Below, one piece after another: positions 25,516 to 62,466 of a stretch of DNA of 64,000 nucleotides; positions within the stretch are counted from its first letter, which is position 1, and the number at the start of each line of letters is the position of its first letter. Location: positions 62,001 through 126,000 of the forward strand of contig CAMWFQ010000012.1 in assembly GCA_947173495.1 (NCBI GenBank), read 5' to 3'. Position numbers and translations under genes: made by a program. The DNA comes from an uncultured Lachnospiraceae bacterium (GTDB taxonomy: Bacteria; Bacillota; Clostridia; Lachnospirales; Lachnospiraceae). Under the pieces are notes generated by a model. That model did no database searches and was not told the DNA's origin. It was given only the letters and a program-made list of their open reading frames with translations.

Positions 25516-27066
25516 ATGATTAAACTGCTGATAGTTGACGACGAAGCCAAAACCAGAAATGGACTGCTGAACCATATCGACTGGACCGGTATTGGCATTG
25601 ACATGATCCAGTCCGCTGCAAGCGGTGCAGAGGCTGTCTCTCTCTGCCAGGATTTCCTTCCCGATATTGTTCTTTCCGATATTCGAATGAGAGGGATGAG
25701 CGGCATTGAACTCTGTGAAGAAATCAAAAGGCAGAACCCCAGCTGTAAAATTATATTTATCAGCGGTTATTCTGATAAAGAATATTTAAAGGCTGCTATT
25801 CACCTTAATGCGGTAGATTATGTTGAAAAGCCTGTCAGGCCATCCGCTTTAAAGGAAACTGTCAGAAAAACGGTGGCTGCCATACGTGAAGAACAGATCA
25901 CCCTTAATCTGGATCACGAAAAATATATTTCCCAGCTCAGGCATAACGTGCTGCTGGCCCTGATCTGTCCTTCCACCGCCACAGCATCTGTTTCAGAAAA
26001 TGAAATAAACGCAGTATTAAGGCCGCCTTTCTCCCTGTACCGCGTCTGCATTCTGCATACCTATACACCTGTTTTAAATCTCCGGCGCTTTATGGACTCC
26101 TTTCCCTACCTGGAAGAAAAGCAAATCCGAAATAATAAGCTGTGTATTTATTTCTGTTTCAAGGATAACCGCAATATTATTCTGCTGCTTTCCGGAGAAC
26201 GAAACGATCTGGATATTCAGAGTGCCTATCTCTCCACGCTTGCATCTGCTGTCTGCCGCTATAACAGGGATGATCAGCGCCTTTTCCTTGCAATTGGGAG
26301 CCTCGCCGGAGCCCGGCAGGAAATTTCTGCTTCCTACGCAAATGCTCTCTTCGCCATGCAGTCAGTTATCTATCGGGGCTATCAGTCATACGCCGATTGC
26401 AGTGAATGCTTTCCGCAGACGATAATTCCTTTTGATTCTGCATTATTTGGGGAATTTCAATCCGCCCTTCATCAGCATGATCTTTCCGGAATGGAGCGGG
26501 TCTTGAATAAAACATCCGATTATCTGTACCACACATACCCTATGAACATAGGCTTCGTTCAGCATATTTACTATTCCTTTTATCAGGAAATCCTGTATGA
26601 ATTCGGACAGATTAGTCCTCTCTCCGAATATACTGGGCCTGCTAACGAGATTGGATCACTGGACACCTTACAGGAACTGAATGATTATCTGACATCTCAG
26701 CTTGCCGATGTTTTTCGTAATGCCGAGCAGAAACGGATTTCCCATGCTTCTCTTCAGGCTGTCATTTCCCGTATTCAGAACAGTTATGCAGATCCTGCCC
26801 TGTCCGTCCGCAATCTGGCGGCAAATGTCTATCTGACTCCGACGTATCTCTCTACACTGTTTAAGCAGCAGCTGGGGATCACTATCAGTGAATACCTTAC
26901 GGATGTCCGCATCAGACACGCAAAATCTCTCATTCGCAGTACGCAATATCCGCTGTCACAGGTCGCACGTCTGGTGGGTTATGAGGATGCTAACTATTTT
27001 ACACGAATTTTTAAAAAGACTACCGGAATCACACCTACTGAATACAGAGAGGGCGGCAATGTTTAA
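25516..27066 (+). CDS. Response regulator, YesN-like (CheY receiver plus AraC-type HTH)
   Basis: This 516-residue protein has an N-terminal receiver domain (VDDE at 7-10, phospho-acceptor Asp55 in LSDIRM, Lys near 105 in VEKPVRP). A long central region of about 270 residues and two C-terminal AraC helix-turn-helix motifs follow (NLAANVYLTPTYLSTLFKQQ and VARLVGYEDANYFTRIFKK). YesN-type regulators activate adjacent sugar ABC operons, and the divergent operon here fits. It overlaps the downstream kinase gene by 8 bases, and the kinase is its evident partner. Confidence 0.95.
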   Translation: MIKLLIVDDEAKTRNGLLNHIDWTGIGIDMIQSAASGAEAVSLCQDFLPDIVLSDIRMRGMSGIELCEEIKRQNPSCKIIFISGYSDKEYLKAAIHLNAVDYVEKPVRPSALKETVRKTVAAIREEQITLNLDHEKYISQLRHNVLLALICPSTATASVSENEINAVLRPPFSLYRVCILHTYTPVLNLRRFMDSFPYLEEKQIRNNKLCIYFCFKDNRNIILLLSGERNDLDIQSAYLSTLASAVCRYNRDDQRLFLAIGSLAGARQEISASYANALFAMQSVIYRGYQSYADCSECFPQTIIPFDSALFGEFQSALHQHDLSGMERVLNKTSDYLYHTYPMNIGFVQHIYYSFYQEILYEFGQISPLSEYTGPANEIGSLDTLQELNDYLTSQLADVFRNAEQKRISHASLQAVISRIQNSYADPALSVRNLAANVYLTPTYLSTLFKQQLGITISEYLTDVRIRHAKSLIRSTQYPLSQVARLVGYEDANYFTRIFKKTTGITPTEYREGGNV

Positions 27067-28915
27067 AACGGGGAAGACATACAGAAAAAAATTTTTCAAA
27101 AAATTATATCAGGAATGGGATAAACTGAATATGCGCGTTAAAATGCTTCTGTCATTTTCAATTTCAGTCATTGTCATACTGATTTCAGTCATGCTTACCC
27201 TGTATTATATTTTGATGCATCATTCCACAGAGCAGGTCCTTTATTCAGCCAATCAATCTTACAATCAGGCCTGCTCCTTTTTAGAACAATACTATAATAC
27301 CCTTTTATATGCGTCTGAACTGATTTACTATAATGGTGATCTGCAGAGGATTCTCTCTTCCGATGAGTTCTTTCATGAAACTAACCTGGGAAAGAGGTAT
27401 CGGGAATTCCTGATCCTGGATCAGGTCATGTCCTCTGTGGAAAGAAATGAGCTTATCTGCCAGAGCCTGATCTATATTCCTGACAACATCATCTACAGTG
27501 ATAATATGACGCATTTTGCTCCTCTTTCATCTCTGGAAGTCCGGGAAGATTTTTCGCTTTTTTATTCACCGGAAAACACCTATAAAGCCTGCTTCATGCC
27601 TCCCAGAGATGTTGTTCTTCCAAACAATCCTGTCCCTGTCAGCCAGGTATCCATTCTCCGCCGTATTAATTCTACCGATGGAAATATAACAGAGCTGGCG
27701 GTGGCGGAGATCAGCATGCAGACTCAGTTTATTCTGGATCTGATCAGCAATGCAAATATTACCAGAAACGGAGTTGCTTATCTGGTCAACCAGCAAGGAC
27801 AGACTATTGGTCTCCCTGAGGGTATTACGGATTATCCCGGATATACCTCCTCCTCTGACTGGAACATTACCATTTTCCAGAACGAAGAATGCTATATGAA
27901 AAGCCGGGAGCTCTTTCATTCGCAATGGATGTTTGTTGCCATTATCCCTATCAACGAAATCAATTCCCAGGCCAGACAGACCCGGAACATTTTCCTTGTC
28001 AGCACCCTGCTTGCTATCTTTATTCTTTTTTGGACTGCAAAAATACTTTCCGATTTTTACACACGAAGAATCAGCTATCTGAATGAGCTGATGCACAGCG
28101 TACAGGCCGGAGAACTGAAAGTTCCCGATGAAAATCTGGGACAGGATGAAATTGGTGAACTCTATCAGAGCTTTCATTTCATGGCGGATAAATTATCCGA
28201 ACAGATGAAAAAGCAATATTGGTATGGACAAATGGCAAAAAATGCAGAACTGCGGGCGCTTCAGTCACAGATCAATCCTCATTTTCTGTACAATACTCTG
28301 GATCTGATCAATTGGGAAGCACTTGATCACGACGCACCTGAAATCGCTGATCTGGTTCAGAGTCTTGCCCTGTTTTACCGGCTGACCTTAAATAAGGGGA
28401 AAGAGATTACAACTCTTCAAGAGGAACTACGGCATGTTTTCACTTATGTTAAAATTGAAAACTGCCATTTTGAAAATGCGATCCATCTTAGCATAGATGT
28501 ACCGGAAGAGTTATTACAGTTTTCCTGTCTGCATATTATTATTCAGCCTTTTGTAGAAAATTCTATTATGCATGGAATGGGTCTCTCCTGTACACGTTCA
28601 GAATGCAACATCCTAATACGAGGTTCTCTGATCGACAATACACTCGTTCTGTCTGTTCAGGATGACGGCGTCGGAATGACCGATGAGCAGATTGCTGCTC
28701 TGCTTACGCCTGCCGACATTCACCAGGAGGCACATGGTTACGGTATTCAAAATATTCAGGAACGAATTCGCCTGATTTATGGAAAATCTTATGGGCTTTC
28801 TTTTTCAAAAACTCCAGGAGGCGGAACCACTGTCAAAATTCATATTCCCGCATGGACAATGGAAGAGGCTCGAAAAAAATTGAAAACAGATGATGACTTT
28901 AGTCTCTCTGACTGA
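27059..28915 (+). CDS. Sensor histidine kinase, YesM-like
   Basis: This 618-residue protein starts at ATG 27059 (MFKTGKTYRKKF), inside the end of the regulator gene, with GAGGGCGG as ribosome site. It has a transmembrane helix at about 26-48, an extracytoplasmic sensor region to about 310, a second helix near 315-335 and a HAMP region. The phospho-acceptor motif QSQINPHFLYNTLD is near residue 400 (His_kinase family), and the HATPase has DDGVGM and GYGIQNIQERI. It likely senses the carbohydrate or its binding protein outside the cell and phosphorylates the regulator at Asp55. Confidence 0.95.
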   Translation: MFKTGKTYRKKFFKKLYQEWDKLNMRVKMLLSFSISVIVILISVMLTLYYILMHHSTEQVLYSANQSYNQACSFLEQYYNTLLYASELIYYNGDLQRILSSDEFFHETNLGKRYREFLILDQVMSSVERNELICQSLIYIPDNIIYSDNMTHFAPLSSLEVREDFSLFYSPENTYKACFMPPRDVVLPNNPVPVSQVSILRRINSTDGNITELAVAEISMQTQFILDLISNANITRNGVAYLVNQQGQTIGLPEGITDYPGYTSSSDWNITIFQNEECYMKSRELFHSQWMFVAIIPINEINSQARQTRNIFLVSTLLAIFILFWTAKILSDFYTRRISYLNELMHSVQAGELKVPDENLGQDEIGELYQSFHFMADKLSEQMKKQYWYGQMAKNAELRALQSQINPHFLYNTLDLINWEALDHDAPEIADLVQSLALFYRLTLNKGKEITTLQEELRHVFTYVKIENCHFENAIHLSIDVPEELLQFSCLHIIIQPFVENSIMHGMGLSCTRSECNILIRGSLIDNTLVLSVQDDGVGMTDEQIAALLTPADIHQEAHGYGIQNIQERIRLIYGKSYGLSFSKTPGGGTTVKIHIPAWTMEEARKKLKTDDDFSLSD

Positions 28916-39499: not shown

Positions 39500-41140
39500 T
39501 TATGATTTTTTCAAATATTCACTACTGGAAAAGCCTTCTTTGCCATCATAGGCAATATAGAGCCATTTCACACCTTCCACCATGGTATAATAACCATAGT
39601 TCCGCACCGTTGCCCCCTTCGGGATCTCCGTGATGATGTTCTCTTTCTTCAGCACTCCCGGATGAGTTCTCATGTTCAAGTTGGTTGTGGTCTTATAGGC
39701 TCCGGCAATACCCTTTGCAAAACTCTTTGCCCCCACCGGCTTCAGGGAAGCATTGCCCGCTGTTTCACCGTTGGCCACATAGGTATAATATTGGCCCGCC
39801 GCATTGCTTGTGTAGGCATACCCGCAGGAAGCCCCCGGCCATACAATTTTATACCACCCATTGCTCAGAATCTCCAATACCTCCACAGAGGCTCCCTTGG
39901 TCACTCCTCCAATGGATGCGGATGCCGTACTGCTGCCGGTTCTCACATTCATATTGCTTTTGGCCGTTGCGCTGCCTATTCCCTTGCCTACATAGTTTTT
40001 ATTGCCTGCTACCGGTTTCGTGCTCTGAGAGGCTCCTGAGGCCGTTCCTGAGGCTTTTGAGCCCTTACTCAGTGCCATAACTACATGAGAGCTTTCCTTC
40101 AGGTAAATGCCGCCCCTCTTTGCGTATGCACTGGATCCGGTGTGGGCAGCATCCGTGTATGCCTTAAATTTGCCGGTTGCCAGGAGAATGCTTTTCATAT
40201 TACCGGTGTAGCCACTGGCGGCAATGCTCAGGCCTGCCAATATGTAACATGCAAGCACCAGGGAGCTGCAATCAAAATCACCCTTAGCCCCGGCCACCTT
40301 CCGGCCATTGTTCACAATCGCATTAAATCCCTTCCATCTGTTCGGCTGAGAATACCCAAAATTATCATTTTTGCATATCTCCTCCATAATTGTGGCGGCC
40401 CGGTTTGCCAGGCTATCATCCAGGCATTCCAGGTATACATTCCACGGCTTACTGTACCACTCCCGGATGCAGATCTCTTTTGTGGTCTGATCTCCCGGTG
40501 TCCTTCCCTGAATAGTGCCGTTTTCGTCAATACTTGCATGGCCAATCAATACAGCCATCTGATCACTCCTTTCCTCATAGCCCTTTACTGCCGCATATAC
40601 CGCATCCCTCCGGGCCATGTACTTACTGAATACTCTGTCACTTTTCGCTGAAGCATAAAGCGCATCCAACGTCTTTCCACTGGCCGCCTTGATAATCCGG
40701 GCAGAGGCACCGGCCCCGCCCTGGTTCTCAATATCGGCCATGAAAATAATAGCTGCCGGATCTGTTACTCCTAAATTTTTAATATGGGTACAGTATCCGG
40801 TAATATCTTTTAAGGCAAGCGCATCCTGGGCCCGCTTCCCTTCCGTAGTGCTGAGGGCAGCAGATAACCGGCCCGCCTCTTCCTCTGTGGCCTTCCTGGT
40901 GCCCCATGAGGTGCCTTTTGCCGTTATTTCCGCATAAAGGGCCGCCCCTAATATTTCCCGGCTTCTCCCGGCTCCCATGGCCTCACAAATCGCCCTCATA
41001 AGGCTCAGGGCCCTGCTGCCATGCCACTGGACTCTCCCAACCGATAAAGCCCCGTTATCGTTCTTATTTACCGATCCATAACCCCCTTCATGGGAAAAAA
41101 TGATCGGAGCCGCCCTCTCAGCAATTTCCTTCAGATTCAT
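39500..41140 (-). CDS. Phage endolysin: lysozyme-like domain, NlpC/P60-like peptidase, two SH3 domains
   Basis: This 546-residue protein has several modules. Residues 1-175 look like a lysozyme/chitosanase-like glycosidase (IIFSHEGGYGSVNKNDNG, SVGRVQWHGSRAL). Residues about 185-345 resemble an NlpC/P60-type peptidase with GDFDCSSLVLACYILAG (catalytic Cys) and ESSHVVMALS (His). After a Ser/Gly linker come two SH3b-type repeats (SNMNVRTGSSTASASIGGVTKGASVEVL near 385, TNLNMRTHPG near 480). It would cut both glycan and peptide bonds, with the SH3 domains binding the wall. It overlaps the upstream small membrane gene by 23 bases. Confidence 0.87.
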   Translation of the reverse strand: MNLKEIAERAAPIIFSHEGGYGSVNKNDNGALSVGRVQWHGSRALSLMRAICEAMGAGRSREILGAALYAEITAKGTSWGTRKATEEEAGRLSAALSTTEGKRAQDALALKDITGYCTHIKNLGVTDPAAIIFMADIENQGGAGASARIIKAASGKTLDALYASAKSDRVFSKYMARRDAVYAAVKGYEERSDQMAVLIGHASIDENGTIQGRTPGDQTTKEICIREWYSKPWNVYLECLDDSLANRAATIMEEICKNDNFGYSQPNRWKGFNAIVNNGRKVAGAKGDFDCSSLVLACYILAGLSIAASGYTGNMKSILLATGKFKAYTDAAHTGSSAYAKRGGIYLKESSHVVMALSKGSKASGTASGASQSTKPVAGNKNYVGKGIGSATAKSNMNVRTGSSTASASIGGVTKGASVEVLEILSNGWYKIVWPGASCGYAYTSNAAGQYYTYVANGETAGNASLKPVGAKSFAKGIAGAYKTTTNLNMRTHPGVLKKENIITEIPKGATVRNYGYYTMVEGVKWLYIAYDGKEGFSSSEYLKKS

Positions 41141-41431: not shown

Positions 41432-41749
41432 TTATGCCCCCTTACTGTTATTCATAGCAAACACAGCCGCCTCTATCAGGGTTTCAAGCTGAGCATCCGA
41501 AATAGAAATATTTTTAGCTGCAAGAATCTCTTTCAAAAACTCCGTAACAATGGCCTTTTTCTCGGCGCCGGATCCTGCCTCCTTATTCATCTGCTCTGCC
41601 GCCTCCACGGCCTTGGCCACCCACTTCATAACTCCGGTGAGCTTCATTTCCTCTGCCCACGTTTTGAGCAGCGGGATCCCGTACCTCATAATGAGTGTTA
41701 CTGCAATAATCACCACAAGCTCAATAACCTTTAATAAAATATTATCCAT
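41432..41749 (-). CDS. Phage holin (LLH-type)
   Basis: This 105-residue protein has one N-terminal transmembrane helix (VIELVVIIAVTLIMRYGIPLL, about 7-28) and a long helical tail KWVAKAVEAAEQMNKEAGSGAEKKAIVTEFL typical of the LLH holin family. Holins open the membrane so that the endolysin can reach the wall. It starts behind GGAGGC and precedes the lysis genes. Confidence 0.82.
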   Translation of the reverse strand: MDNILLKVIELVVIIAVTLIMRYGIPLLKTWAEEMKLTGVMKWVAKAVEAAEQMNKEAGSGAEKKAIVTEFLKEILAAKNISISDAQLETLIEAAVFAMNNSKGA

Positions 41750-43042: not shown

Positions 43043-44257
43043 TTATACTGTTTTAGGGATATATGGGATGTACTCCCAATTTTCTATAAATAGCCGATTG
43101 AAAAGGGCATCCATATTCCTGATAGTGTGGTATGCGTCCTTTTTCCCGGCAAATCCCCGCCATGATTGATATGCCGCCCTGATCTGCTCATAGCTCATGT
43201 GGCCCTCAGCATTCAGCTTGGCAAATTTCTTCAGCTTCCTTCTTTCCCTTGTTACAGAATCCCGGCATATTCTTTTCACTACCTTCCCGGTATCCGTGAG
43301 CAGGAAATGTGTTTTTAAGAATGTGAAGCCCCTGCTGAGCTTCACAATTTTGGTTTTCTTATCATTGAGCCGTATTCCCAATGATTCATATATTTTTCGC
43401 ACCTCTTCCAGTATCTCCTTCAGGTATTCCTTATCAATGTGAATGATATATGAATCATCCATATACCTGGCATATGGCCGGATCCCTTTTTCGTCCTTCA
43501 CATAATGATCCACTTTATCAGGATAAGAAACGGCGCATATTTGGCAGACTTCACTCCCTAATCCCAGGCCACTGGCATACTCTTCACCGTACTCCATGGC
43601 CGCCTCTTTAAATTGTGCCATTTCCTTCATTTTCTCCTCAGCAAAGGCATCAATAAATTGCTCTGCAAGGTGAATGATCCTCTGATCCGTGAATTTGCTC
43701 CGGATCTGCTCCTTCATTTTGTCATGTGGGATACTTGCAAAATAATCTTTCAGATCTATTTGCAGGATATAGCCCTCATTTCCATATTTTGCATAATGCT
43801 CCTGCAAATGAAGCGTGATCCGGTCAATGGCATGGCTGATTCCCATACCCTTCCTGGATGCTCCGTTGTCATATATCAGACTATTGGAGAGCACCGGCAT
43901 GAGTGCATTTTGTGAGAGGCTCTTCTGAGGCACACGCTCAGAGAAATGCACACTCTGAATATGCCTCAGCTTTCCCCTCTCCACCAAATCAAAGGCAATG
44001 AATCCCTTTCGGACATCCTCGCCATTGATCAGTGCATTATGAGTTTTACAAAGGTTTCTGCTCAGCTCGGATCTGTACCGCTGCACACTGGCTTTCCACC
44101 CCACTCCCTTCCTGGCATCCTTGTATGCCTGGTAAAGTGAGTTATAATCTGCCACCCGTTCAAAATTATCATATTCGGATAGCCTCTCCCTCCGGTGTGC
44201 CTCCCTGGCCTCTCTCCTTCGCTGAGCTCTGCCCGCTCTTCTTTCTTCACTTGTCAT
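43043..44257 (-). CDS. DGR reverse transcriptase
   Basis: This 404-residue reverse transcriptase has motif A ILQIDLKDYFASIPHDKM (Asp168), LGLGSEVCQICA in the motif-4 position (231-242) and the catalytic YMDD box (265-268). Conserved thumb-type segments RLNDKKTKIVKLSRGFTFLKTHFLLT follow. It lacks maturase, endonuclease or helicase domains, so it is not a group II intron enzyme. Its gene lies downstream of the template repeat and is preceded by target and avd-like genes, the standard DGR arrangement. The enzyme should copy the template RNA with errors at adenines and return the cDNA to the variable repeat. The proposed start lacks a good ribosome site, so a few residues of uncertainty remain. 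Confidence 0.94.
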   Translation of the reverse strand: MTSEERRAGRAQRRREAREAHRRERLSEYDNFERVADYNSLYQAYKDARKGVGWKASVQRYRSELSRNLCKTHNALINGEDVRKGFIAFDLVERGKLRHIQSVHFSERVPQKSLSQNALMPVLSNSLIYDNGASRKGMGISHAIDRITLHLQEHYAKYGNEGYILQIDLKDYFASIPHDKMKEQIRSKFTDQRIIHLAEQFIDAFAEEKMKEMAQFKEAAMEYGEEYASGLGLGSEVCQICAVSYPDKVDHYVKDEKGIRPYARYMDDSYIIHIDKEYLKEILEEVRKIYESLGIRLNDKKTKIVKLSRGFTFLKTHFLLTDTGKVVKRICRDSVTRERRKLKKFAKLNAEGHMSYEQIRAAYQSWRGFAGKKDAYHTIRNMDALFNRLFIENWEYIPYIPKTV

Positions 44258-44542
44258 ATAAAATTGTGCCCATCTCCTCCTTGTACGGTATTTGTGCCCC
44301 TAACCGCATAATGGTATGGGTATGAAATGCACCTCTGCACCTTCTTTTCAGCTCCCTTCCGATTTCTGCACCATGCAAGCAGCGTACACCCACCCAAAAC
44401 AAGCAAAAACCACCTCTCTGAGCACATGAGAGGCGGCAAGGTCATTTACACTTTTTTCAAAGTGACGGTCATCCACTCCTTCCTCTACCTGATACAGATT
44501 TCTGCCTTTTACAGCGTACTTTGTCGGATCGTTTGTGGTAGT

Positions 44543-44666
44543 GAATCAGACGGGCACCCGATTAGCGTTGGAGCAACTGTTGTTGTTGGCATTGCCATTG
44601 TTGTTGACATTGCAGGCATTGGTAGAATTGCCCGCACACACAGACAGCAGCCACCAGGTGGCCCGG
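44543..44666 (-). repeat. TR: DGR template repeat (TR)
   Basis: This 124-bp non-coding repeat aligns without gaps to the VR (offset 642 bp). On the minus strand it contains 12 AAT/AAC codons in the VR frame and a TGA where the target has TGC, so it cannot encode the protein. It lies between the avd-like and reverse transcriptase genes and would be transcribed as template RNA. The gap 44258-44698 holds the TR plus flanking RNA; I see no gene there. Confidence 0.95.
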
Positions 44667-44698
44667 TGCGAAAAATACAGCGGATAACCGATATTTCA

Positions 44699-45106
44699 TT
44701 ATTTTCTTTTAACTATTTTCGTGTTGTCCTTCCAGTTTTTCAGCTTCCCCTCTTCCTTCAACATTAAATTCAGGAGCGGATCAAATCGGTTCCAATCCAC
44801 TGGCAGAGTAGTGGCCAGGTAATTTATGAGATCATAAATATCCCGCAAGGTGTCAATGGCCTCCTGGGCCTTTGCCTTCCTCTTCTCCACTAATTCCTCC
44901 GTTGTGCTCCATATTCTGTTAGCTGCCCGGATCTGAGTATAGAGCTTGTGGCACAGCGCACACATTGGCTTTGCAAATATATCCCGCCATCCTTTAGGCA
45001 CTATATTGGTATTCCATACCAACCTTGTGGCCTCTGCTCTTATTTCCTCCGCAAGATCCAACACATCCAATTTTGAGGCGCTCCTGAGCCTTGCCAATAC
45101 ACTCAT
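44699..45106 (-). CDS. avd: Avd-like accessory variability determinant of the DGR
   Basis: This 135-residue, positively charged, all-helical protein resembles the Avd four-helix bundle (LARLRSASKLDVLDLAEEIRAEATRLV; KPMCALCHKLYTQIRAANRIWSTTEELVEKRKA; TLRDIYDLINYLATTLPVDWNRFDPLLNLM). Avd forms a pentamer that binds the reverse transcriptase and template RNA and is required for retrohoming. The size matches known Avd proteins. It starts at ATG 45106 behind GAGGAAAGAGC and lies between the target gene and TR. Confidence 0.85.
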   Translation of the reverse strand: MSVLARLRSASKLDVLDLAEEIRAEATRLVWNTNIVPKGWRDIFAKPMCALCHKLYTQIRAANRIWSTTEELVEKRKAKAQEAIDTLRDIYDLINYLATTLPVDWNRFDPLLNLMLKEEGKLKNWKDNTKIVKRK

Positions 45107-45134
45107 GCTCTTTCCTCACTTTCGCAAATTATAC

Positions 45135-45157
45135 CCCGCCCCTGGGAAGGGGGCGGG
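45135..45157 (-). promoter_or_regulatory. GC-rich hairpin just downstream of the DGR variable repeat
   Basis: CCCGCCCC and GGGGCGGG form a perfect 8-bp stem with a 7-nt loop between the target gene stop and the avd-like gene, 27 bp from the VR end. Known DGRs use a DNA hairpin/cruciform just after VR to mark the homing target; this is the best candidate here, although terminator function is possible. Confidence 0.7.
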
Positions 45158-45169
45158 ATTGATCCATGA

Positions 45170-46129
45170 TTATTCCGTGATTCGGAAGCAGACGGGCACC
45201 CGGAGAGCGTTGGAGCAACTGTTGTAGCTGGCACCGCCATCGCCGCTGACATAGCAGGCATAGGTAGAATGGCCCGCACACACAGACAGCAGCCACCAGG
45301 TGGCCCGGCTTCCTCCGTCACCGGCCCCCTTGATCCGATTCTTCCAACTGTTCGCAAAAATCGGATACTGCACCGCCTGGCCTTCTCCCCATGGCTTTGT
45401 TGCCCAAATCAGTGAGCCAAACACTTCATATTCACACGGGATCCACAGTTTCCCTAAATCCTGCCACCCCCATGAGGTTGAATCATTCAGCTTTCCGGAT
45501 GCAGAATATCTCTGCTCTAAAAGGAACCGCTTGGAGCTGATAACCGCCCGCACCTCTGCCGGGAGCTTTGCCTCTAATCCGGCCAGGAAGCTCTTCACGG
45601 TTGACTTGTTATAGGGATAAGGATCCGCTGAGGTTCCGTTGTTATCGTTTGAAGTGAACCATTGCACAGTATCCGGGTAACAATCTTTTGAGATCCAATC
45701 AATATGCCACCCTACCTCCTGATCACAGCACCGTGTATATGTATTTATACCGGCAATCTGCATTTTGATCAGATAATTCCCCATGTAAATGGGTATATAG
45801 TCCTCTACATGCAGGCCATCAATGTTATGGGCTGCAAGCCTGGTTTTAATCCACCGCCACGGATCAGAAAATCCGGCAATCTCCTCAGCAAATTCCACTG
45901 TAAGATCCCGGCCCTCATAGGTGCGATCTGCTGCCTCTATGGCATAATTGGTATGCTTATTCTCAAAATTGATCTGCTCTGCACCGTATTCATCCCCTTC
46001 CTGGGTGTACGGTGTTACGTCATTATAGCTCTTGGTGCCATCCTCGTTCTGCACCTCTCCAAACTTGCGATCTGCCGCAAGCTCTTTGTTGATCACGTCA
46101 TCCACATAATCTGTTTTTAATACTGACAT
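45170..46129 (-). CDS. DGR variable target protein (receptor-binding, C-type-lectin-like C-terminus)
   Basis: This 319-residue protein ends in a C-type-lectin-like region: LWIPCEYEVFGSLIW, NSWKNRIKGAGDGGSRATWWLLSV. The VR codes for residues about 275-315 (RATWWLLSVCAGHSTYACYV and onward to VPVC). Variable positions are filled by His, Tyr, Tyr, Ser, Gly, Asp, Gly, Ser, Tyr, Asn, Asn and Leu. Such lectin folds present variable side chains on a binding face. The N-terminal part (MSVLKTDYVDDVINKELAADRKF) likely attaches it to the tail. It is preceded by an AGGAGGGC ribosome site. It most likely binds the host surface; which molecule is unknown. Confidence 0.93.
   Translation of the reverse strand: MSVLKTDYVDDVINKELAADRKFGEVQNEDGTKSYNDVTPYTQEGDEYGAEQINFENKHTNYAIEAADRTYEGRDLTVEFAEEIAGFSDPWRWIKTRLAAHNIDGLHVEDYIPIYMGNYLIKMQIAGINTYTRCCDQEVGWHIDWISKDCYPDTVQWFTSNDNNGTSADPYPYNKSTVKSFLAGLEAKLPAEVRAVISSKRFLLEQRYSASGKLNDSTSWGWQDLGKLWIPCEYEVFGSLIWATKPWGEGQAVQYPIFANSWKNRIKGAGDGGSRATWWLLSVCAGHSTYACYVSGDGGASYNSCSNALRVPVCFRITE
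45185..45308 (-). repeat. VR: DGR variable repeat (VR)
   Basis: The 124-bp VR lies at the 3' end of the target gene and matches the TR except at 15 positions. On the minus strand 14 of the changed template bases are adenine; the fifteenth is a T/C difference next to the conserved CGGGTGCCCGTCTG end. That GC-rich end is a likely initiation-of-mutagenic-homing (IMH) element. Confidence 0.95.
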
Positions 46130-49542: not shown

Positions 49543-52500
49543 TTATGCGTTGGCCATCTGATAGCCTTTTCTCCGTCTGTATTTGTCCGTTTGCTCCACC
49601 AGTGTTTTACTGTCAAGCAATACAGTTGTGTGAATGGTCTGCCATTCCTCCCCTGCATCCATTTCTCCGATAATGGCCCGGATATTCATGGAGATAATTT
49701 CTCCAATCCTGGCCGCCACCTTATCCATCCATCCGGTATTGTTTTCCAGTGGCACAACCGCCTCCTGCCCGGCTTCTCCAACCATTGCAATAGTGGCCTG
49801 GTCTACAATGCCGCCCTTTGCAAGTCTTGGTATTGATACATTACCTATTGTGGAGATATTGAAGCCAAATGTTTTCCCGCCTATCTCCGGCACCCAATCC
49901 GGCACATCAAAGCTCAGGTTATTCAGCGCCCGGATCATTCCGTTTATGCCGTTGATCACACCGTTGGCCATCTTCTCAACTCCTCCAATTATGGAATTTA
50001 TCACCCCTTTTATAGAGCTCCAAATCCCATTGAAGATATTTACCACGGTTGTTTTCATGCTCTCCCACATATTGCTCCACGTTGTTTTGATACTGCTCAG
50101 GGCCGTGCTTATGCCGCTCTGAATCGTTCCCATTATCGTGGTGATCGTGCTCTTAATGGCATTGAAAATGGTGTTTACGGTTGTTTTTATGCTTTCCAGT
50201 ATTGTGCTAAACGTGGTCTTGATACTATTCAGCACGGTGCTGATCGTGGTGCTCACAGCATTTATAATTGTGGTGATCGTGCTCTTGATCGCATTGAATA
50301 CGGTTGTAACGGTATTCTTAATGCTTTCCAGTATCGTGCTGAAGGTTGTTTTTATCGCATTCAGTACAGTGCTTATGATCGTGCTTATCGCATTGATCGT
50401 GGTGCTTATTATGCTTTTGATTGCATTCCACACTGTATTTATGAGAGTTTTGATCGCCTCCCAAATGGTCTGAAAAATCGTCTTGATTGTATTCAGCTCC
50501 GCACTGATAACTGAAGAGATAACTCCCAGGGCCGTTGAAATAATGGCCTTGATCGCACTCCACACAGCGCTCACTATATTCTTTATGGCATCCCATATTG
50601 CAGAGAAAAAGGTTTTAATCACTTCCCATGCCCTCTGCCAGTCACCGGTAAACACTCCGGCTATAAAATCGATCAGGCCGCCCAATGCGTCAAAAATATT
50701 TCCGATCACATCAGCAACCACTCCGGCCACCTTCAAGAATATGCTGCCCACTGTATTCAGGGCCGCCGCTATGTACGGGGCCGTGGCAATAAACCACTCT
50801 ATGAATGGCTGAAGCGTCTGCTCCCAAATATCTTTTATTGCATCCGCTATCTTTCCGATCAGTTCCAGGCCCTTATTGATTGCGGGCTGTATGTGTTCAT
50901 CAATTAGCGGCTTCACCTTCGCCTGAAGGCCTTCCAATACCGGTAATATATATGAGTTATAGGCATCCAGTAGTTTCCCGGTTATGCTGCTGAGCCCTGC
51001 TGCCAGTGAGCTGAACATGGGAGCCAAATGTTGATCATACACCTCATTAGCCTTGCTGAAAGTGTCATCCACCACTTGCTTGATATTCCCTAAAAATCCG
51101 CTCCGCACTCCCAACGTGCCATCCAGGGCCGTTTTAAATTTATCCTGGTTATCTATGAAGGGCCTTGTGATAATGTCCTTTATATCCCGGTACAGCTTCG
51201 CACCGATCTCTGCTGCCCCCATGGCCGCATTGGCAAAAATGCCTATAATGTTAGCCGTTACCTGCTGCCCGTTCTCTCCTCCAAATACAGAGAAGATATT
51301 GGCCGCCGCCTGGGCAAAATCCCCCTGAATCTTCACGATCTCTGAGCTTATATCAAACATGCTCACTATATGCCGCTTGATCCGCTCTTTGTTCTGGTCC
51401 AGGTACTTATTCAGGCCGCCTAATAGGTTTGTGGCTATCGTGATCCCTATGCTTGCCGCCGCTCCTGCCTGCTGCCCTAAAGAGTAGGCCCATGTATTCA
51501 GGAAGTTATTGGCTGCCTGCAATACGGCGGGATCCGTCCAAATCTCTTTCAGGCTCTTCTTAATGCCCTCAATAGCCTGCTTCAGAGGTTCCAGGGTTAC
51601 ATCCCCCAGGCCTGCCTTAAATCCCTTCTTAAAAAGCTCAGCAAGCTCCTTCAGCCGGTTCCAAATCTTTTCCAGTACCGGGTTAAGCGTTGCATCCGCT
51701 TCGTCTGCTGCATCCACTATGTTCTCAGAGAGAGCTCCTCCTGAAGCGCCGCCACCGCCGCCTCCGGATCCGCCGCTCCCACTATCCTCTGCCGCCTTCG
51801 TCAGGCTATGAATTTCATCAAAGGAAGCCAGGCCATGAAAAGCCTCCTCCGCTTTCTTCGCTGATTTCCCCGCCTTATCCGTGGCCCCTGAGAGGCTCCC
51901 GGCTGAATCCGTTGCAGAATCTAGGGCCCCTCCCATTTCATTCACTGAGGTTGTGGTTTTTGTGTTCTTTCCGGTGATCTTTGAAATGAAATTGCTGAAG
52001 GCATCGGTTACGGTCAAAATCTTTGCAAGTAGCTGATTGAGCACCCGGATCACCGGTGTTAATACAGCAATAAGGCCCTGCCCAATGGCCGCCTTTAAAG
52101 CATTAAATCTCTCAGTAAGCACCCGCACCTGGTTAGCCCACCCATCTGAAGTGCGGGCAAAATCGCCTTGTGCGTCCTTTGTCACTGATAACAGATAGTT
52201 GTACCTGAGGATCGCCTGCTCCTGCTGTGACATTGCATTATAAGCCTTTGTTATTCCCTGGCTGAGTGCGTATGCCTCCATATTGGCCACGGACATATTG
52301 ATCCCCAACTGCTTCAGCGGTTCGGTTTCTCCTGATATTCCGGCCCGGATCTTCTCAAATGCCGCATCATTTTCCAGGTTATAAAAAGAGGCCATATCTG
52401 CCGCAAGCCCCGCCATTTCCATAGACATTTCAGCCGCCTGGTTTGTGGCTATTCCCATGGATTTCAGCATCGCCCCTAATGTTGAGGTGTACTTCTTTGC

Positions 52501-52854
52501 GCTTGTTTCAGATAGGCCAAATTGTTCAAGTGCATCCCTGGCAAAATGGTTGATTGTTTCAGACATGGCCCCAAACGTGACATCCACCACGTTCTGCACC
52601 TCTGCAAGGGCAGAGCCCAACTCAATGCAGCTCTTTCCAAAACTGATCAGTGCCGTTACAGAAAAAGCAACGGCCACCGCCTTCCCAATCTTGCCAAATG
52701 CACTCTTTATTTTTTCTGTTTGTCTTTCAACTGCACTGGTTGCTTTTTTGGTCTGCTGCTGTACTTTTTGCAGCTCCTCATAGTATGCCCGTGTTTGGGC
52801 CTCAATGATTACTTGCAGCCGTTCCAGCGTCATTCCTTCCACTGTTCTCTTCAC
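49543..52854 (-). CDS. Phage tail tape measure protein
   Basis: This 1103-residue protein starts at GTG 52854 behind AAGGAG; an ATG seven codons later has a poorly spaced site. The N-terminal coiled coil (EELQKVQQQTKKATSAVERQTEKIKSAFGKIGKAVAVAF) is followed by the phage tail tape-measure domain (about 60-240). Further on there is a Gly/Ser linker (about 345-370) and, from about 780 to 980, repeated hydrophobic segments TTFSTILESIKTTVNTIFNAIKSTI. Tape measures set tail length and reach into the membrane at DNA entry. The size predicts a tail of about 165 nm by the usual 0.15 nm per residue rule. Confidence 0.95.
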   Translation of the reverse strand: MKRTVEGMTLERLQVIIEAQTRAYYEELQKVQQQTKKATSAVERQTEKIKSAFGKIGKAVAVAFSVTALISFGKSCIELGSALAEVQNVVDVTFGAMSETINHFARDALEQFGLSETSAKKYTSTLGAMLKSMGIATNQAAEMSMEMAGLAADMASFYNLENDAAFEKIRAGISGETEPLKQLGINMSVANMEAYALSQGITKAYNAMSQQEQAILRYNYLLSVTKDAQGDFARTSDGWANQVRVLTERFNALKAAIGQGLIAVLTPVIRVLNQLLAKILTVTDAFSNFISKITGKNTKTTTSVNEMGGALDSATDSAGSLSGATDKAGKSAKKAEEAFHGLASFDEIHSLTKAAEDSGSGGSGGGGGGASGGALSENIVDAADEADATLNPVLEKIWNRLKELAELFKKGFKAGLGDVTLEPLKQAIEGIKKSLKEIWTDPAVLQAANNFLNTWAYSLGQQAGAAASIGITIATNLLGGLNKYLDQNKERIKRHIVSMFDISSEIVKIQGDFAQAAANIFSVFGGENGQQVTANIIGIFANAAMGAAEIGAKLYRDIKDIITRPFIDNQDKFKTALDGTLGVRSGFLGNIKQVVDDTFSKANEVYDQHLAPMFSSLAAGLSSITGKLLDAYNSYILPVLEGLQAKVKPLIDEHIQPAINKGLELIGKIADAIKDIWEQTLQPFIEWFIATAPYIAAALNTVGSIFLKVAGVVADVIGNIFDALGGLIDFIAGVFTGDWQRAWEVIKTFFSAIWDAIKNIVSAVWSAIKAIISTALGVISSVISAELNTIKTIFQTIWEAIKTLINTVWNAIKSIISTTINAISTIISTVLNAIKTTFSTILESIKNTVTTVFNAIKSTITTIINAVSTTISTVLNSIKTTFSTILESIKTTVNTIFNAIKSTITTIMGTIQSGISTALSSIKTTWSNMWESMKTTVVNIFNGIWSSIKGVINSIIGGVEKMANGVINGINGMIRALNNLSFDVPDWVPEIGGKTFGFNISTIGNVSIPRLAKGGIVDQATIAMVGEAGQEAVVPLENNTGWMDKVAARIGEIISMNIRAIIGEMDAGEEWQTIHTTVLLDSKTLVEQTDKYRRRKGYQMANA

Positions 52855-56253: not shown

Positions 56254-57105
56254 TTAGTTTTTGTTTGCTGTTAATACAGAGATACACTTGGGCTGCAATA
56301 CCTTGGCACCATACACATGCAGGCCCTTCACAGCGTCAGAGAATCTCTTTTCAGGCCGGAATGCCTCAGTTTTAATGATCTGCTCGGCATAGGAGCCTGC
56401 TGCATTGGTTCCGGCAATGATCTTGTACTTGGCCCCCTCAGTGTTCGGCACATTGTTTGAGAGCCAAATCCTGAAGCCTGCCGCCACACCGATCTCCCCG
56501 CCTTCGATCAGGGCTTTATTGTAATCCGTGCCATTCCCCACGAATCTGCTATCTTTCAGCAAAAGCCCGTGATACCATGCAGGAATAACCGCCCATCTCC
56601 CAATCGTTGGCACGTTCTTCTCTGTCAAATCCGTGGAAAGATCCACCAGGTAATCATAGGCATTATCTTTTGCCGGTACAATGGGCGCTGTATCGCTTCC
56701 CAGGTTCTCTCCATTGTTCTCAGCTCCCAAATACAAAAGGTTTGCCAGGAAGAGATCCGTTGTGTCATTCATGGCATATGCTGAGCGCTGCATGGCCCCA
56801 TCCATGAGCTTAGGGTTTACCTGGGCAGCGTCCACATCATCAATGGAAAAGTTGAAATATTTTGCCTGATCAATGGTGAGTGTGTTCTGATCTCCATTCA
56901 GCTCCTCCGGATCGTCAATGTCCTTCCCTTTCGTATAGTCTTTAATGGTGACATCCCCGATCTGATTGATCTTTACGGTATCACCATAGTTTTTGATCTC
57001 CCCCTCATAATCCCGGTTTACCAGGGCGGCATATACATGTGCCTTGTCAAGGTGTGCCAAAAGCCTGGCACTCCAAATTGTGGGGATAAAGTTTGCTACT
57101 GACAT
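56254..57105 (-). CDS. Major capsid protein (P22-like coat)
   Basis: This 283-residue protein starts MSVANFIPTIWSARLLAHLDKAHVYAALVNRDYEGEI and has the coat features GDTVKINQIGDVTIKDY and IDDVDAAQVNPKLMDGAMQRSAYAM. The length suits an HK97-fold coat of this clostridial group. It is preceded by the scaffold gene and a good AGGAGG-type site. Confidence 0.92.
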   Translation of the reverse strand: MSVANFIPTIWSARLLAHLDKAHVYAALVNRDYEGEIKNYGDTVKINQIGDVTIKDYTKGKDIDDPEELNGDQNTLTIDQAKYFNFSIDDVDAAQVNPKLMDGAMQRSAYAMNDTTDLFLANLLYLGAENNGENLGSDTAPIVPAKDNAYDYLVDLSTDLTEKNVPTIGRWAVIPAWYHGLLLKDSRFVGNGTDYNKALIEGGEIGVAAGFRIWLSNNVPNTEGAKYKIIAGTNAAGSYAEQIIKTEAFRPEKRFSDAVKGLHVYGAKVLQPKCISVLTANKN

Positions 57106-60446: not shown

Positions 60447-61949
60447 TCACCTCTTGCTTCCTGCTGCCTGCTGCCGCTTCTCCTTTTCCTCTTCAGCGCC
60501 TTCCTTTGGTTCCTCTTCAGAATCCTCTTTCGGTTCGGTTTCTTCCCCCTCTCCCTCTTCCGGCTCCTCTTCATCCCCAAATTCAGGCGGCTCATTGAAT
60601 CCCTGCCCAAAAAGTTCCTGCTGCCGCTTCACCTCTTCATTCTTTTGCTTCTCAACCTCTTCGATCTCATAGTCAGGATCTTCCACAAAAGGCAGGAGCT
60701 TCAGCAATGTTTTTGCAGAAACATTGTCCTTCAGGTTTGCCACAATCTGAGCCAGTTCTAAAAGGTTCTTAGGCAGCGCCCGGCTGAAAGTTGCCATGAT
60801 TGAGCCCGCCTCCATGAGGATCGCCTTCATTCTGAGGAAATTGCAATACAGCCGGATCCTCTTCCTGAGGCCCTTTTTATATTGCCGCTCTTTTACCTTC
60901 GTGATCATTTCCAGGCCCAGGAGCTTATATTCCATTGCCACCCCGCTCACGTTCCCTGCAAAGTTTTCATCCATGAAGTTGGGTACATGGCTGAAATTGT
61001 AAATATCTTCTTTTATGGCCTTCCTGAGCACCTCTGCCCCGTTTTCATCCATCTGCCTGCTCAGGTACTCCGCTTTTGCGTCCTCAGGCAATTCCAGGAG
61101 CTTATTCTCTCTCAGCTTCTTTTGTGCCTCCGTGGTTTCCTCTTCGTCATCCCCCAAAATAGCCCCATACAGCACAAGCACCGCATCAATGAATTGCTCT
61201 TTATCATTGATCCGGTCACTCATTAGCGTGTTGTATGCGTCTATCAAAGGGATCTGCTGCTCAAAATCCCCTATTGCCTCCTTATTGTTCAGATACTCTA
61301 TGATCTGAGGCTCACCAAAATAATGGGCCACCGGCTCCTCCGTCACCTGCTGAGAAACATCTGCCCCGCTATCGTCTATATTCAGCACATAGGTATAATT
61401 GGCCGTGCTCACCGTTGCCACATAGGTATATGTATCTTGCACAGAGTTCTTTTTCTTGTAGTAGTACACCCCGCAGAGTTCATTTTCCTCTATGGTGTCA
61501 TCCACCACTATGAAGGTGGATAATGGAGAGATATTCTTGGAAACGGGGGCGGCCTCTCCCTCTTTCGTGTACACATATTCATAAGCTAACCCATAAATGC
61601 TCATATCTAGGGCATTATCGGCATCCACATCATCCACATTGGCATTGTCAAATGCCGTGAGCAATTTGGAAATGTCCTGATCCCCGCTGTTTGAATATGT
61701 GACCGGGTTCCCCATGAAGTACCCCGTGGCCGTGTCAGAAATATCTTTCGCATGGTTGCATGTTACTTTGCTGTTTGGTGCCTCCTTCTCCCGCTTCCGG
61801 TTCTCGATCTCATGGTGCCCATCATAATACCGCTTATTCTTCAGCAGGCGGGCCACCATGCCCTCATGCTTCTTTACCAACGTGAGAATGATACTTTTAT
61901 TCAAATTGCTTTCGTCAAATTGTTCTGCCGGATATGTAAAACGCTCCAC
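60447..61949 (-). CDS. Phage portal protein (SPP1 gp6-like)
   Basis: This 500-residue protein starts at GTG 61949 (VERFTYPAEQF) behind TTAGGAGGG. An upstream in-frame TTG start would read through that ribosome site. It has portal features: LLKNKRYYDGHHEI, SKVTCNHAKDISDTATGYFMGNPV, ALVLYGAILGDDEEETTEAQ and LGLEMITKVKERQYKKGLRKRIRLYC. The C-terminal 60 residues are strongly acidic (EEEPEEGEGEETEPKED). The portal is the DNA entry ring and docks the terminase. Confidence 0.93.
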   Translation of the reverse strand: MERFTYPAEQFDESNLNKSIILTLVKKHEGMVARLLKNKRYYDGHHEIENRKREKEAPNSKVTCNHAKDISDTATGYFMGNPVTYSNSGDQDISKLLTAFDNANVDDVDADNALDMSIYGLAYEYVYTKEGEAAPVSKNISPLSTFIVVDDTIEENELCGVYYYKKKNSVQDTYTYVATVSTANYTYVLNIDDSGADVSQQVTEEPVAHYFGEPQIIEYLNNKEAIGDFEQQIPLIDAYNTLMSDRINDKEQFIDAVLVLYGAILGDDEEETTEAQKKLRENKLLELPEDAKAEYLSRQMDENGAEVLRKAIKEDIYNFSHVPNFMDENFAGNVSGVAMEYKLLGLEMITKVKERQYKKGLRKRIRLYCNFLRMKAILMEAGSIMATFSRALPKNLLELAQIVANLKDNVSAKTLLKLLPFVEDPDYEIEEVEKQKNEEVKRQQELFGQGFNEPPEFGDEEEPEEGEGEETEPKEDSEEEPKEGAEEEKEKRQQAAGSKR

Positions 61950-61977
61950 TTCAATCCCTCCTAACAAAAAGAGAGCC

Positions 61978-62466
61978 TCACCTGGCCCTCTTTTTCATTC
62001 TATAATATTTTGCCTTACATTTTTCTGAGCAAAACCTATTTCTTCCATTCGGTTTGCTTATATATTTTTTCTTGCAACATTGGCACACAAACTCCTGCTC
62101 CTTTATAGGATTCCTTCTTATTTGCTCCTTGTGCCACTCAATTCCCTCTTTACTCCTATGCCAATTCTTTGCCTCTTCCCTGGCTTTTTTCAAATTATTA
62201 TCTGCTGCCCCTGGGTGCCTCTCATGCCATTTCTTTGCATGATCCGCTTGGTGCTTCCCTTTCCGAACCATTTCAAGGTTTGATATGTCATTATTAGATT
62301 TATCTTCATCCTTATGGTGTATATCATACCCTTTTGGAATAGGCCCATTGTAAAATTCCCATACATATCTATGCATCCGCTTTCTTATTGTGGAATTTAG
62401 ATAATACCCGGTTTTATCATCCCTTGTGAATTTCAGGCCGTTAAAATATTGGTATTTGCTGCTCAT
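61978..62466 (-). CDS. HNH endonuclease (free-standing homing-type)
   Basis: This 162-residue protein has an HNH core GYDIHHKDEDKSNNDISNLEMV (residues 49-70) and two CxxC pairs near the C-terminus (CQCC, CSEKC), a zinc finger-like end. It lies between the small gene and portal gene, where HNH genes frequently insert between terminase and portal genes. It overlaps the upstream gene by ATGA. It could serve packaging or be a selfish homing gene. Confidence 0.85.
   Translation of the reverse strand: MSSKYQYFNGLKFTRDDKTGYYLNSTIRKRMHRYVWEFYNGPIPKGYDIHHKDEDKSNNDISNLEMVRKGKHQADHAKKWHERHPGAADNNLKKAREEAKNWHRSKEGIEWHKEQIRRNPIKEQEFVCQCCKKKYISKPNGRNRFCSEKCKAKYYRMKKRAR

Follow-up and report, generated by a model that had tools for sequence, protein, structure and literature searches.

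The window analysed here is the whole 64,000-nucleotide stretch that comprises positions 62,001 to 126,000 of contig CAMWFQ010000012.1 from an uncultured bacterium of the gut-associated family Lachnospiraceae, and it contains what is very probably a diversity-generating retroelement (DGR) of a prophage. Four parts lie on the minus strand in the order target gene 1, avd-like open reading frame (ORF), template repeat (TR) and reverse transcriptase (RT) gene, an arrangement that a preliminary description of the sequence had reported and that was confirmed for all four. Target gene 1 (45170..46129), located in the tail block, encodes 319 aa with a C-terminal DUF6273 domain (1.3e-6), and alignment to TR placed the 124-nt variable repeat 1 (VR1; 45185..45308) near its 3′ end. 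A GC-rich inverted repeat with an 8-bp stem and a 7-nt loop (45135..45157), a candidate hairpin or cruciform, was found 27 nt 3′ of VR1. The Avd-family accessory protein (135 aa, pI 9.5), assigned by profile and sequence comparison, is encoded at 44699..45106. It is followed by the intergenic TR (124 nt; 44543..44666), by a 285-nt spacer reaching to the RT start (44258..44542), which from its coordinates is presumably part of the TR RNA, and by the RT gene (43043..44257; 404 aa), recognised from RVT_1, phrog_1423 and sequence motifs, with YMDD at residue 265.

When the whole genome was queried with VR1, three places were recovered, namely VR1 itself, TR and a third copy, VR2. The latter lies at contig position C12:132291-132412, equivalent to window positions 70291-70412, which is beyond the window end and approximately 25 kb from the cassette. 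The cassette had been described as a complete DGR; the element appears genuine, but it is larger than that, with one TR that would template both VR1 and the out-of-window VR2.

Template repeat, fixed 3′ end and protein affiliation

The gap-free 124-nt alignment of TR and VR1 had 88% identity and 15 mismatches, of which 14 fell at TR adenines and one at a T; the coordinates and this adenine count both agreed with the preliminary description. The match (expectation value (E) = 3.1e-39 in the genome search) is far above chance, and none of 42 random 400-nt templates from seven phage records, used as a control of the TR–VR finder, gave such a repeat. Four of the 15 differences (the three bases of AAT to CTC, and A121 to C) are located at the 3′ end and are identical in VR1 and VR2. 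Because both VRs share them and their position is 3′-terminal, they are probably fixed differences of the initiation region rather than products of mutagenesis. The proportion of 14 in 15, correct as a count, was slightly inflated by these four; without them, 11 of 11 differences between TR and VR1 fall on adenines.

Read in the VR frame, TR contains a TGA at positions 119-121. Position 121 (44546, minus strand) is A in all eight TRs and C in all 14 VRs of the eight phages compared below, the TR adenine being found in 0 of 14 VRs. This pattern indicates that transfer would stop upstream of position 121, and the 3′ end that stays behind would therefore protect the target, since A121 would create a stop codon. 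IMH* is the name used for the TR-side counterpart of the initiation-of-mutagenic-homing (IMH) region, and we take the A121/C difference to be the counterpart of the IMH/IMH* pair of Bordetella phage BPP-1. The candidate IMH region of VR1 is its 3′ end, VR positions 107-124 (45185..45202).

The RT matched RVT_1 (1.9e-15) and the reverse transcriptase family phrog_1423 (1.1e-81, 276 bits), and its best match among solved structures was 8ub7, named 'Reverse transcriptase' (1.6e-11), which we take to be the DGR RT of BPP-1. It is 52% identical to the RT of Roseburia phage Shimadzu. The motif-4 sequence is a marker of RT class (GxxxSQ versus QGxxxSP). The motif-4 region GSEVCQ and the YMDD of the window RT align with GSLTSQ and YMDD of BPP-1, with C in place of the S of GxxxSQ, whereas an unrelated RT of the same genome has QGSAVSP at motif 4. 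Because of the 8ub7 match, the relatives in phages with TR/VR pairs and the BPP-1-like motif 4, the RT is assigned by sequence to the DGR class, in line with the earlier reading of a YMDD RT. Defence and group II RTs were considered as well. Five NCBIfam models matched, none of them near its cut-off (83 bits for the best, versus 300), and among the best 25 of 82 PADLOC models, which come without cut-offs, a generic RT model reached 96 bits and named defence RTs approximately 66, compared with 276 for phrog_1423. The DGR class was preferred over these on account of the motif-4 region and the TR/VR pairing. The unrelated second RT of the genome (L084; G000:C5:212140-212760) has an open frame of approximately 780-935 aa with the motifs QGSAVSP and YSDD. 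In addition, RTs of approximately 39-52% identity are present in pieces in two other species of the genus (L019, L020, L022 and L023; G013 and G006), where further DGR lineages may exist.

The Avd-like protein is 30% identical to the Avd of Shimadzu. When the 2008 ORFs from 18 phage records were searched iteratively with an Avd profile, 17 of the records each contributed a single ORF to the final set; this set holds the annotated Avd proteins of Shimadzu, FP_Brigit, BalMu-1 and VP58.5, with BalMu-1 and VP58.5 at 1e-33. The profile joins the 135-aa ORF to annotated Avd proteins, which supports its earlier designation as Avd-like. A comparison of the protein with solved structures gave no related entry.

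Variation of two repeats among related prophages

The comparison covered eight distinct prophage copies: those of the window, Parablautia intestinalis, strain 10-1, IMSAGC_002, IMSAGC_003 (IMS3), the metagenome-assembled genomes (MAGs) MGG and RosMAG, and one metagenomic virus contig. IMG/VR record 2588253904_000003 was left out of the counts, its TR, VR1 and VR2 being identical to those of strain 10-1. Each VR was counted against the TR of its own phage over columns 4-103. In VR1 (n = 8), 85 of 208 adenines were changed versus 2 of 592 other bases, and in VR2 (n = 6) the corresponding counts were 78 of 155 versus 2 of 445. The VR base opposite TR adenines (n = 363) was A in 200 cases, G in 76, T in 65 and C in 22. 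The 60 nt 5′ of VR1 were identical in seven of the eight phages. Comparison of VRs across relatives was the check that the preliminary description had proposed; the VRs were not fixed, and their differences were nearly confined to TR adenines.

Furthermore, changes found in only some of the TRs turned up again in the VRs of the phages concerned. C91 of the IMS3 TR was present in both VR1 and VR2 of IMS3, which are approximately 25 kb apart, C91 of the MGG TR was present in MGG VR1, and all four TR changes of the metagenomic phage (positions 22, 25, 70 and 95) were present in its VR1. This recurrence fits the prediction of TR-to-VR transfer and, at the level of sequence, points to directional copying beyond mere mutation.

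TR holds 12 AAY codons (AAT or AAC), 11 of them upstream of the fixed 3′ positions, and ten of these 11 were altered in at least one of the two VRs of the window phage. The number of possible proteins, previously given as 15^12, was corrected on this basis to 15^11, approximately 9 × 10^12. The twelfth codon is used in the relatives IMS3 and MGG. At TR positions 104-106 (window 44561-44563), AAT is present in the window phage, IMS3 and MGG, and CTC (in one case CTG) in the other five; the VRs of IMS3 and MGG read TAT or CGT at these positions, as an AAT template predicts.

Both target genes are under purifying selection outside the VRs. The ratio of nonsynonymous to synonymous polymorphism (pN/pS) was 0.09 in target 1 and 0.26 in target 2, compared with 0.18 in the RT gene and 0.11 in avd; inside the VRs it was 1.96 in target 1 and 5.25 in target 2. 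Premature stops were found in 0 of 8 copies of target 1 and 0 of 6 copies of target 2.

VR2 lies at the 3′ end of a 207-aa ORF, target gene 2 (L004:10277-10900), which matched DUF6273 at 1.8e-22. It differs from TR at adenines and at the same fixed 3′ positions as VR1. A single small ORF separates the gene from a DNA methyltransferase gene, and its block contains a replication initiator, RNase H and, by eye, an ORF resembling single-stranded DNA-binding protein (SSB); the large terminase gene lies approximately 6 kb downstream. The window phage has, in other words, a remote second VR of the same TR in a non-structural gene block. VR2 was present in six of the eight copies; the MGG contig and the 15.6-kb metagenomic contig stop before the expected place, and VR2 was not found elsewhere in the MGG genome, a MAG that is 59% complete.

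The two targets are 43% identical over 177 aa, and therefore they likely arose by duplication. The same identity speaks for VR2 as a passive by-product, that is, a duplicated DUF6273 domain that is TR-like but no longer a target. We consider this reading scarcely credible, since the adenine variation of VR2 (78/155) is as extensive as that of VR1 (85/208), VR2 carries the C91 of the TR in IMS3, and it has its own downstream inverted repeat. Moreover, the gene is open in six of six copies with a pN/pS of 0.26 outside the VR, and a second remote VR was detected in seven other phage records, as detailed below.

Near target 2, the early block also encodes a cell-wall hydrolase (L004:8477-9220; phrog_14642, endolysin) with a hydrophobic segment, in addition to the late endolysin-like gene of the window (39500..41140), and Shimadzu likewise annotates a cell wall hydrolase (orf40) in its early block. 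Two viral contigs with relatives of target 2 (L065:6984-7507 and L066:4096-4561) end at or inside the VR-equivalent stretch; such breaks are expected if mixed VR variants disrupt assembly. L058 is a relative of target 2 (68%); its record, which may be a fragment, yielded no RVT_1 match at E 0.01.

In BPP-1, a GC-rich inverted repeat 3′ of the VR is needed for efficient retrohoming, and hairpins of this kind, with a GC-rich stem of 7-10 bp and a 4-nt GRNA loop, are 'nearly always found' without being defining (PMC3240598; here and below, publications are cited from the parts of their text that were available). An inverted-repeat search (stem of at least 7, loop of 3-8 nt, within approximately 70 nt) gave stems of 8 bp at VR1 and 7 bp at VR2 of the window phage and none at TR.

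These results make it highly probable that the element is a true DGR of a phage, in which one TR feeds two targets. In the proposed mechanism, the TR region would be transcribed into RNA, and RT and Avd would copy this RNA with misincorporation opposite adenines, an enzymology suggested by the anatomy and the variation. The mutated cDNA would then take the place of the homologous VR in the 3′-terminal part of the target gene (mutagenic retrohoming, as established for BPP-1); at VR1 or VR2, the hairpin and the match of the 3′ ends would direct this exchange. One TR would serve both VR1, in the tail-block protein by the cassette, and VR2, in the 207-aa early-block protein approximately 25 kb away.

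Several points weigh against this conclusion. Fisher tests on the above counts take sites of closely related phages as independent, and four non-adenine differences, two in VR1s and two in VR2s, do not follow the adenine rule. The hairpin loops of the window phage (7 nt at VR1; CATT at VR2) lie outside the published GRNA consensus. BPP-1 Avd was reached only at E = 0.25 after iteration, and a direct hhalign comparison of the window Avd with a BPP-1/VP58.5/BalMu-1 profile was not significant (probability 1.4). In addition, a premature TGA interrupts the RT gene at codon 54 in strain 10-1 (L036:10001-11215) and its IMG/VR twin (L007), and not every prophage copy need be active. VR1 and VR2 of the window phage also keep CTC at positions 104-106 despite the AAT of TR, and hence these VRs have not been fully overwritten since the TR change. 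Either this TR change (or a recombination) was recent, or recent transfers stopped short of positions 104-106.

The last two observations, the stop at codon 54 and the TR AAT found in neither VR, favour a decayed DGR that was active in ancestors and is inert now, with the VR differences as relics. On the other side, seven of the eight copies have a full-length RT frame, among them that of the window, whose RT protein is identical in Parablautia intestinalis and IMSAGC_002. The VR1s of these two relatives nevertheless differ at many adenines next to an identical 60 nt upstream. With flank and RT identical and VR1 changed at many adenines, VR turnover must have been recent relative to ordinary mutation, and we regard decay as very improbable. 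In strain 10-1, avd and both target genes are open beside the stopped RT gene, which makes this copy a possible natural RT-null.

Remote second targets in other phages

Eighteen phage records were scanned with a TR–VR finder that allows free variation only at template adenines, the step and flank lengths varying slightly between runs. Seventeen records came from the best 40 of 99 RT matches (or their records) and BPP-1 was added by accession, so that they do not form a random sample. A VR near the RT together with a second VR 12-25 kb from TR was found in seven of the 18 records, namely Shimadzu, Dulem virus 34 (Dulem34), Lelie, Fontainebleau, MT835491, nd12 and nd4. One VR was found in the long records MT835543, Pioen, Roos and FP_Brigit, in the controls VP58.5, BalMu-1 and BPP-1, and in four fragments of 15-34 kb, which are uninformative. 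Lelie, MT835491, Pioen, Roos and FP_Brigit were scanned over 50 kb and Shimadzu over 41 kb, and a single VR in such a scan is no proof of absence. DUF6273 was matched by six of the six remote targets scanned (of the seven), with Lelie and Fontainebleau below the curated cut-off.

The position of these targets in an early block was judged from annotated neighbours in Shimadzu, Dulem34, Fontainebleau and nd4, and from the distance to structural genes in Lelie, nd12 and MT835491. The remote target of Fontainebleau comes right after DNA polymerase I and one gene ahead of a helicase, that of Dulem34 follows a methyltransferase, and that of nd4 overlaps a DNA polymerase III subunit gene. Neighbours are mostly hypothetical in Lelie and nd12, and the MT835491 record is unannotated, with an SSB-like ORF recognised by eye.

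The inverted-repeat search described above found repeats after ten of the 17 VRs examined and after none of nine TRs. The ten comprise both VRs of the window phage, Shimadzu, Fontainebleau and MT835491, one of Dulem34 and that of BPP-1. The two VR hairpins of MT835491 are identical in sequence. VR2 of Dulem34, which has by eye a 5-bp stem with a GAAA loop, was counted as none under the 7-bp limit. In Lelie, nd4 and nd12, which have their VRs inside genes, neither VR was followed by an inverted repeat.

Among the known systems, Shimadzu (LR596903) resembles the window phage in gene order, RT (52%), Avd (30%), target 1 (56%, orf22) and target 2 (43%, orf43), and its VR2 lies in orf43, between a methyltransferase and an Erf recombinase. 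It differs in host and sequence, in a tail fibre of 431 aa and in the distance of VR2 from TR (14 kb versus approximately 25 kb). The Shimadzu record annotates a tail sheath, a component for which no systematic search was made in the window phage. The two targets of Shimadzu were reported earlier, in reference 18 of PMC11792537, according to that paper.

BPP-1 (NC_005357) shares with the window phage the order target-avd-TR-RT, the TR adenine rule, a 3′-terminal VR, a downstream hairpin and an RT with YMDD and a similar motif 4. Unlike the window phage, it has a single target by the finder, Mtd, and its hairpin loop is GAAA; likeness of the Avd proteins is not directly detectable. The finder made no link between the TR of BPP-1 and the 'variable region 2' that its record places in bbp36, in the early region (L083:33229-33558).

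Remote second targets near methyltransferases are already published (PMC8008677 and PMC12629997). The Quimbyvirus DGR (PMC8008677) likewise combines a structural-module target with a remote and probably non-structural target beside methyltransferases; by its description it is set apart by inferred Bacteroidetes hosts, an RT in three overlapping frames and a remote target on the opposite strand. The gut prophages of PMC12629997, four phage species likened to the window phage by description, have a second VR at a distance from the RT cassette and close to genes of counter-defence, such as that of a DNA methyltransferase. Two DUF6273 targets are also present in nd4 and nd12 (PMC10743442) and in the Faecalibacterium phages Lelie and CP11 (PMC11792537), the last known to us by description. 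In nd4, nd12 and Lelie, one VR lies 12-16 kb from TR; they differ from the window phage in that their VRs are inside genes and a downstream hairpin was not found. Two-target DGRs make up approximately 13% of cassettes in a figure cited in PMC10743442, and remote targets escape the survey of PMC8144416 by its own account. A recurrent remote DUF6273 target across such diverse phages, with paired hairpins in several, was not found stated in the available parts of the open-access literature searched.

Prophage context and presumed roles of the targets

The genes around the cassette, all on the minus strand, are those of a phage. Profile matches identified a holin (Holin_LLH; 41432..41749) downstream of the DGR and an endolysin-like protein (ELLD and SH3; 39500..41140), and context annotation gave a tape-measure protein (49543..52854), a major head protein (56254..57105) and a portal protein (60447..61967). 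A large terminase, a replication initiator and a repressor-like gene are found further along the contig, which ends soon after that regulator. The prophage is common to named Lachnospiraceae, including Parablautia intestinalis D8-82 and Lachnospiraceae bacterium 10-1, consistent with the Clostridia prophage proposed earlier. To the left of the lysis genes, a 675-aa ORF on the plus strand (26888-28915) matched only PHROGs of unassigned function.

Target 1 is located between the tail genes and the holin and endolysin genes, and it is 56% identical to Shimadzu orf22, annotated as a tail fibre. Its tail-block position and this homologue uphold the earlier view of target 1 as a tail protein, and it is most likely a receptor-binding tail protein, whose variation might alter the host range, as the preliminary description proposed. 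Both targets match DUF6273, and a C-type lectin fold is claimed for targets of this family from published models (PMC10743442); the lectin-like nature proposed earlier for target 1 is putative. AlphaFold2 models had a mean predicted local distance difference test (pLDDT) score of 41 for target 2 (alignment of 6 rows) and 33 for target 1 (8 rows), too poor for use; the sequence modelled for target 2 was L057, from the IMG/VR record matching strain 10-1, and not the protein of the window itself.

Target 2 might be an intracellular binder that acts early in infection or induction, although we put this at somewhat below an even chance. The main rival, serious though doubtful, is that target 2 serves as another virion or receptor-binding protein whose early-block location is fortuitous, a reading compatible with the DGR mechanism proposed above. 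In its favour, receptor binding has been suggested for both targets of nd4 and nd12 (PMC10743442), and DUF6273 is common to both targets. The neighbours of the remote targets, in contrast, belong to replication, recombination or DNA methylation in Shimadzu, Dulem34, Fontainebleau, nd4 and the window phage, and a hydrophobic segment like that of two positive controls was found in 0 of 8 of these early targets. Similar remote targets have, moreover, been read as conflict-related (PMC8008677 and PMC12629997). An intracellular binder is modestly favoured for target 2. The presumed roles are thus receptor binding for target 1 and, for target 2, expression at an early stage and action inside the cell. 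More speculatively, in many temperate phages of gut Firmicutes, one DGR might diversify both an external tail protein and a small early intracellular DUF6273 protein, the latter being a fast-evolving binder of host molecules that vary, for instance defence proteins, or of factors of rival phages. Such a protein would be the phage's own counterpart of an adaptive recognition repertoire.

Ordinary as a DGR, this element is nevertheless a clean natural experiment, in which several near-identical prophages carry two targets and one template. Because the supply of mutations is the same for both, the tail target can be set against the possibly internal one and their variation compared. A scan based on the window or on the cassette overlooks the remote target, as the preliminary description did. 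If the early target does bind intracellular host factors, this would answer what purpose the non-structural DGR targets of phages serve.

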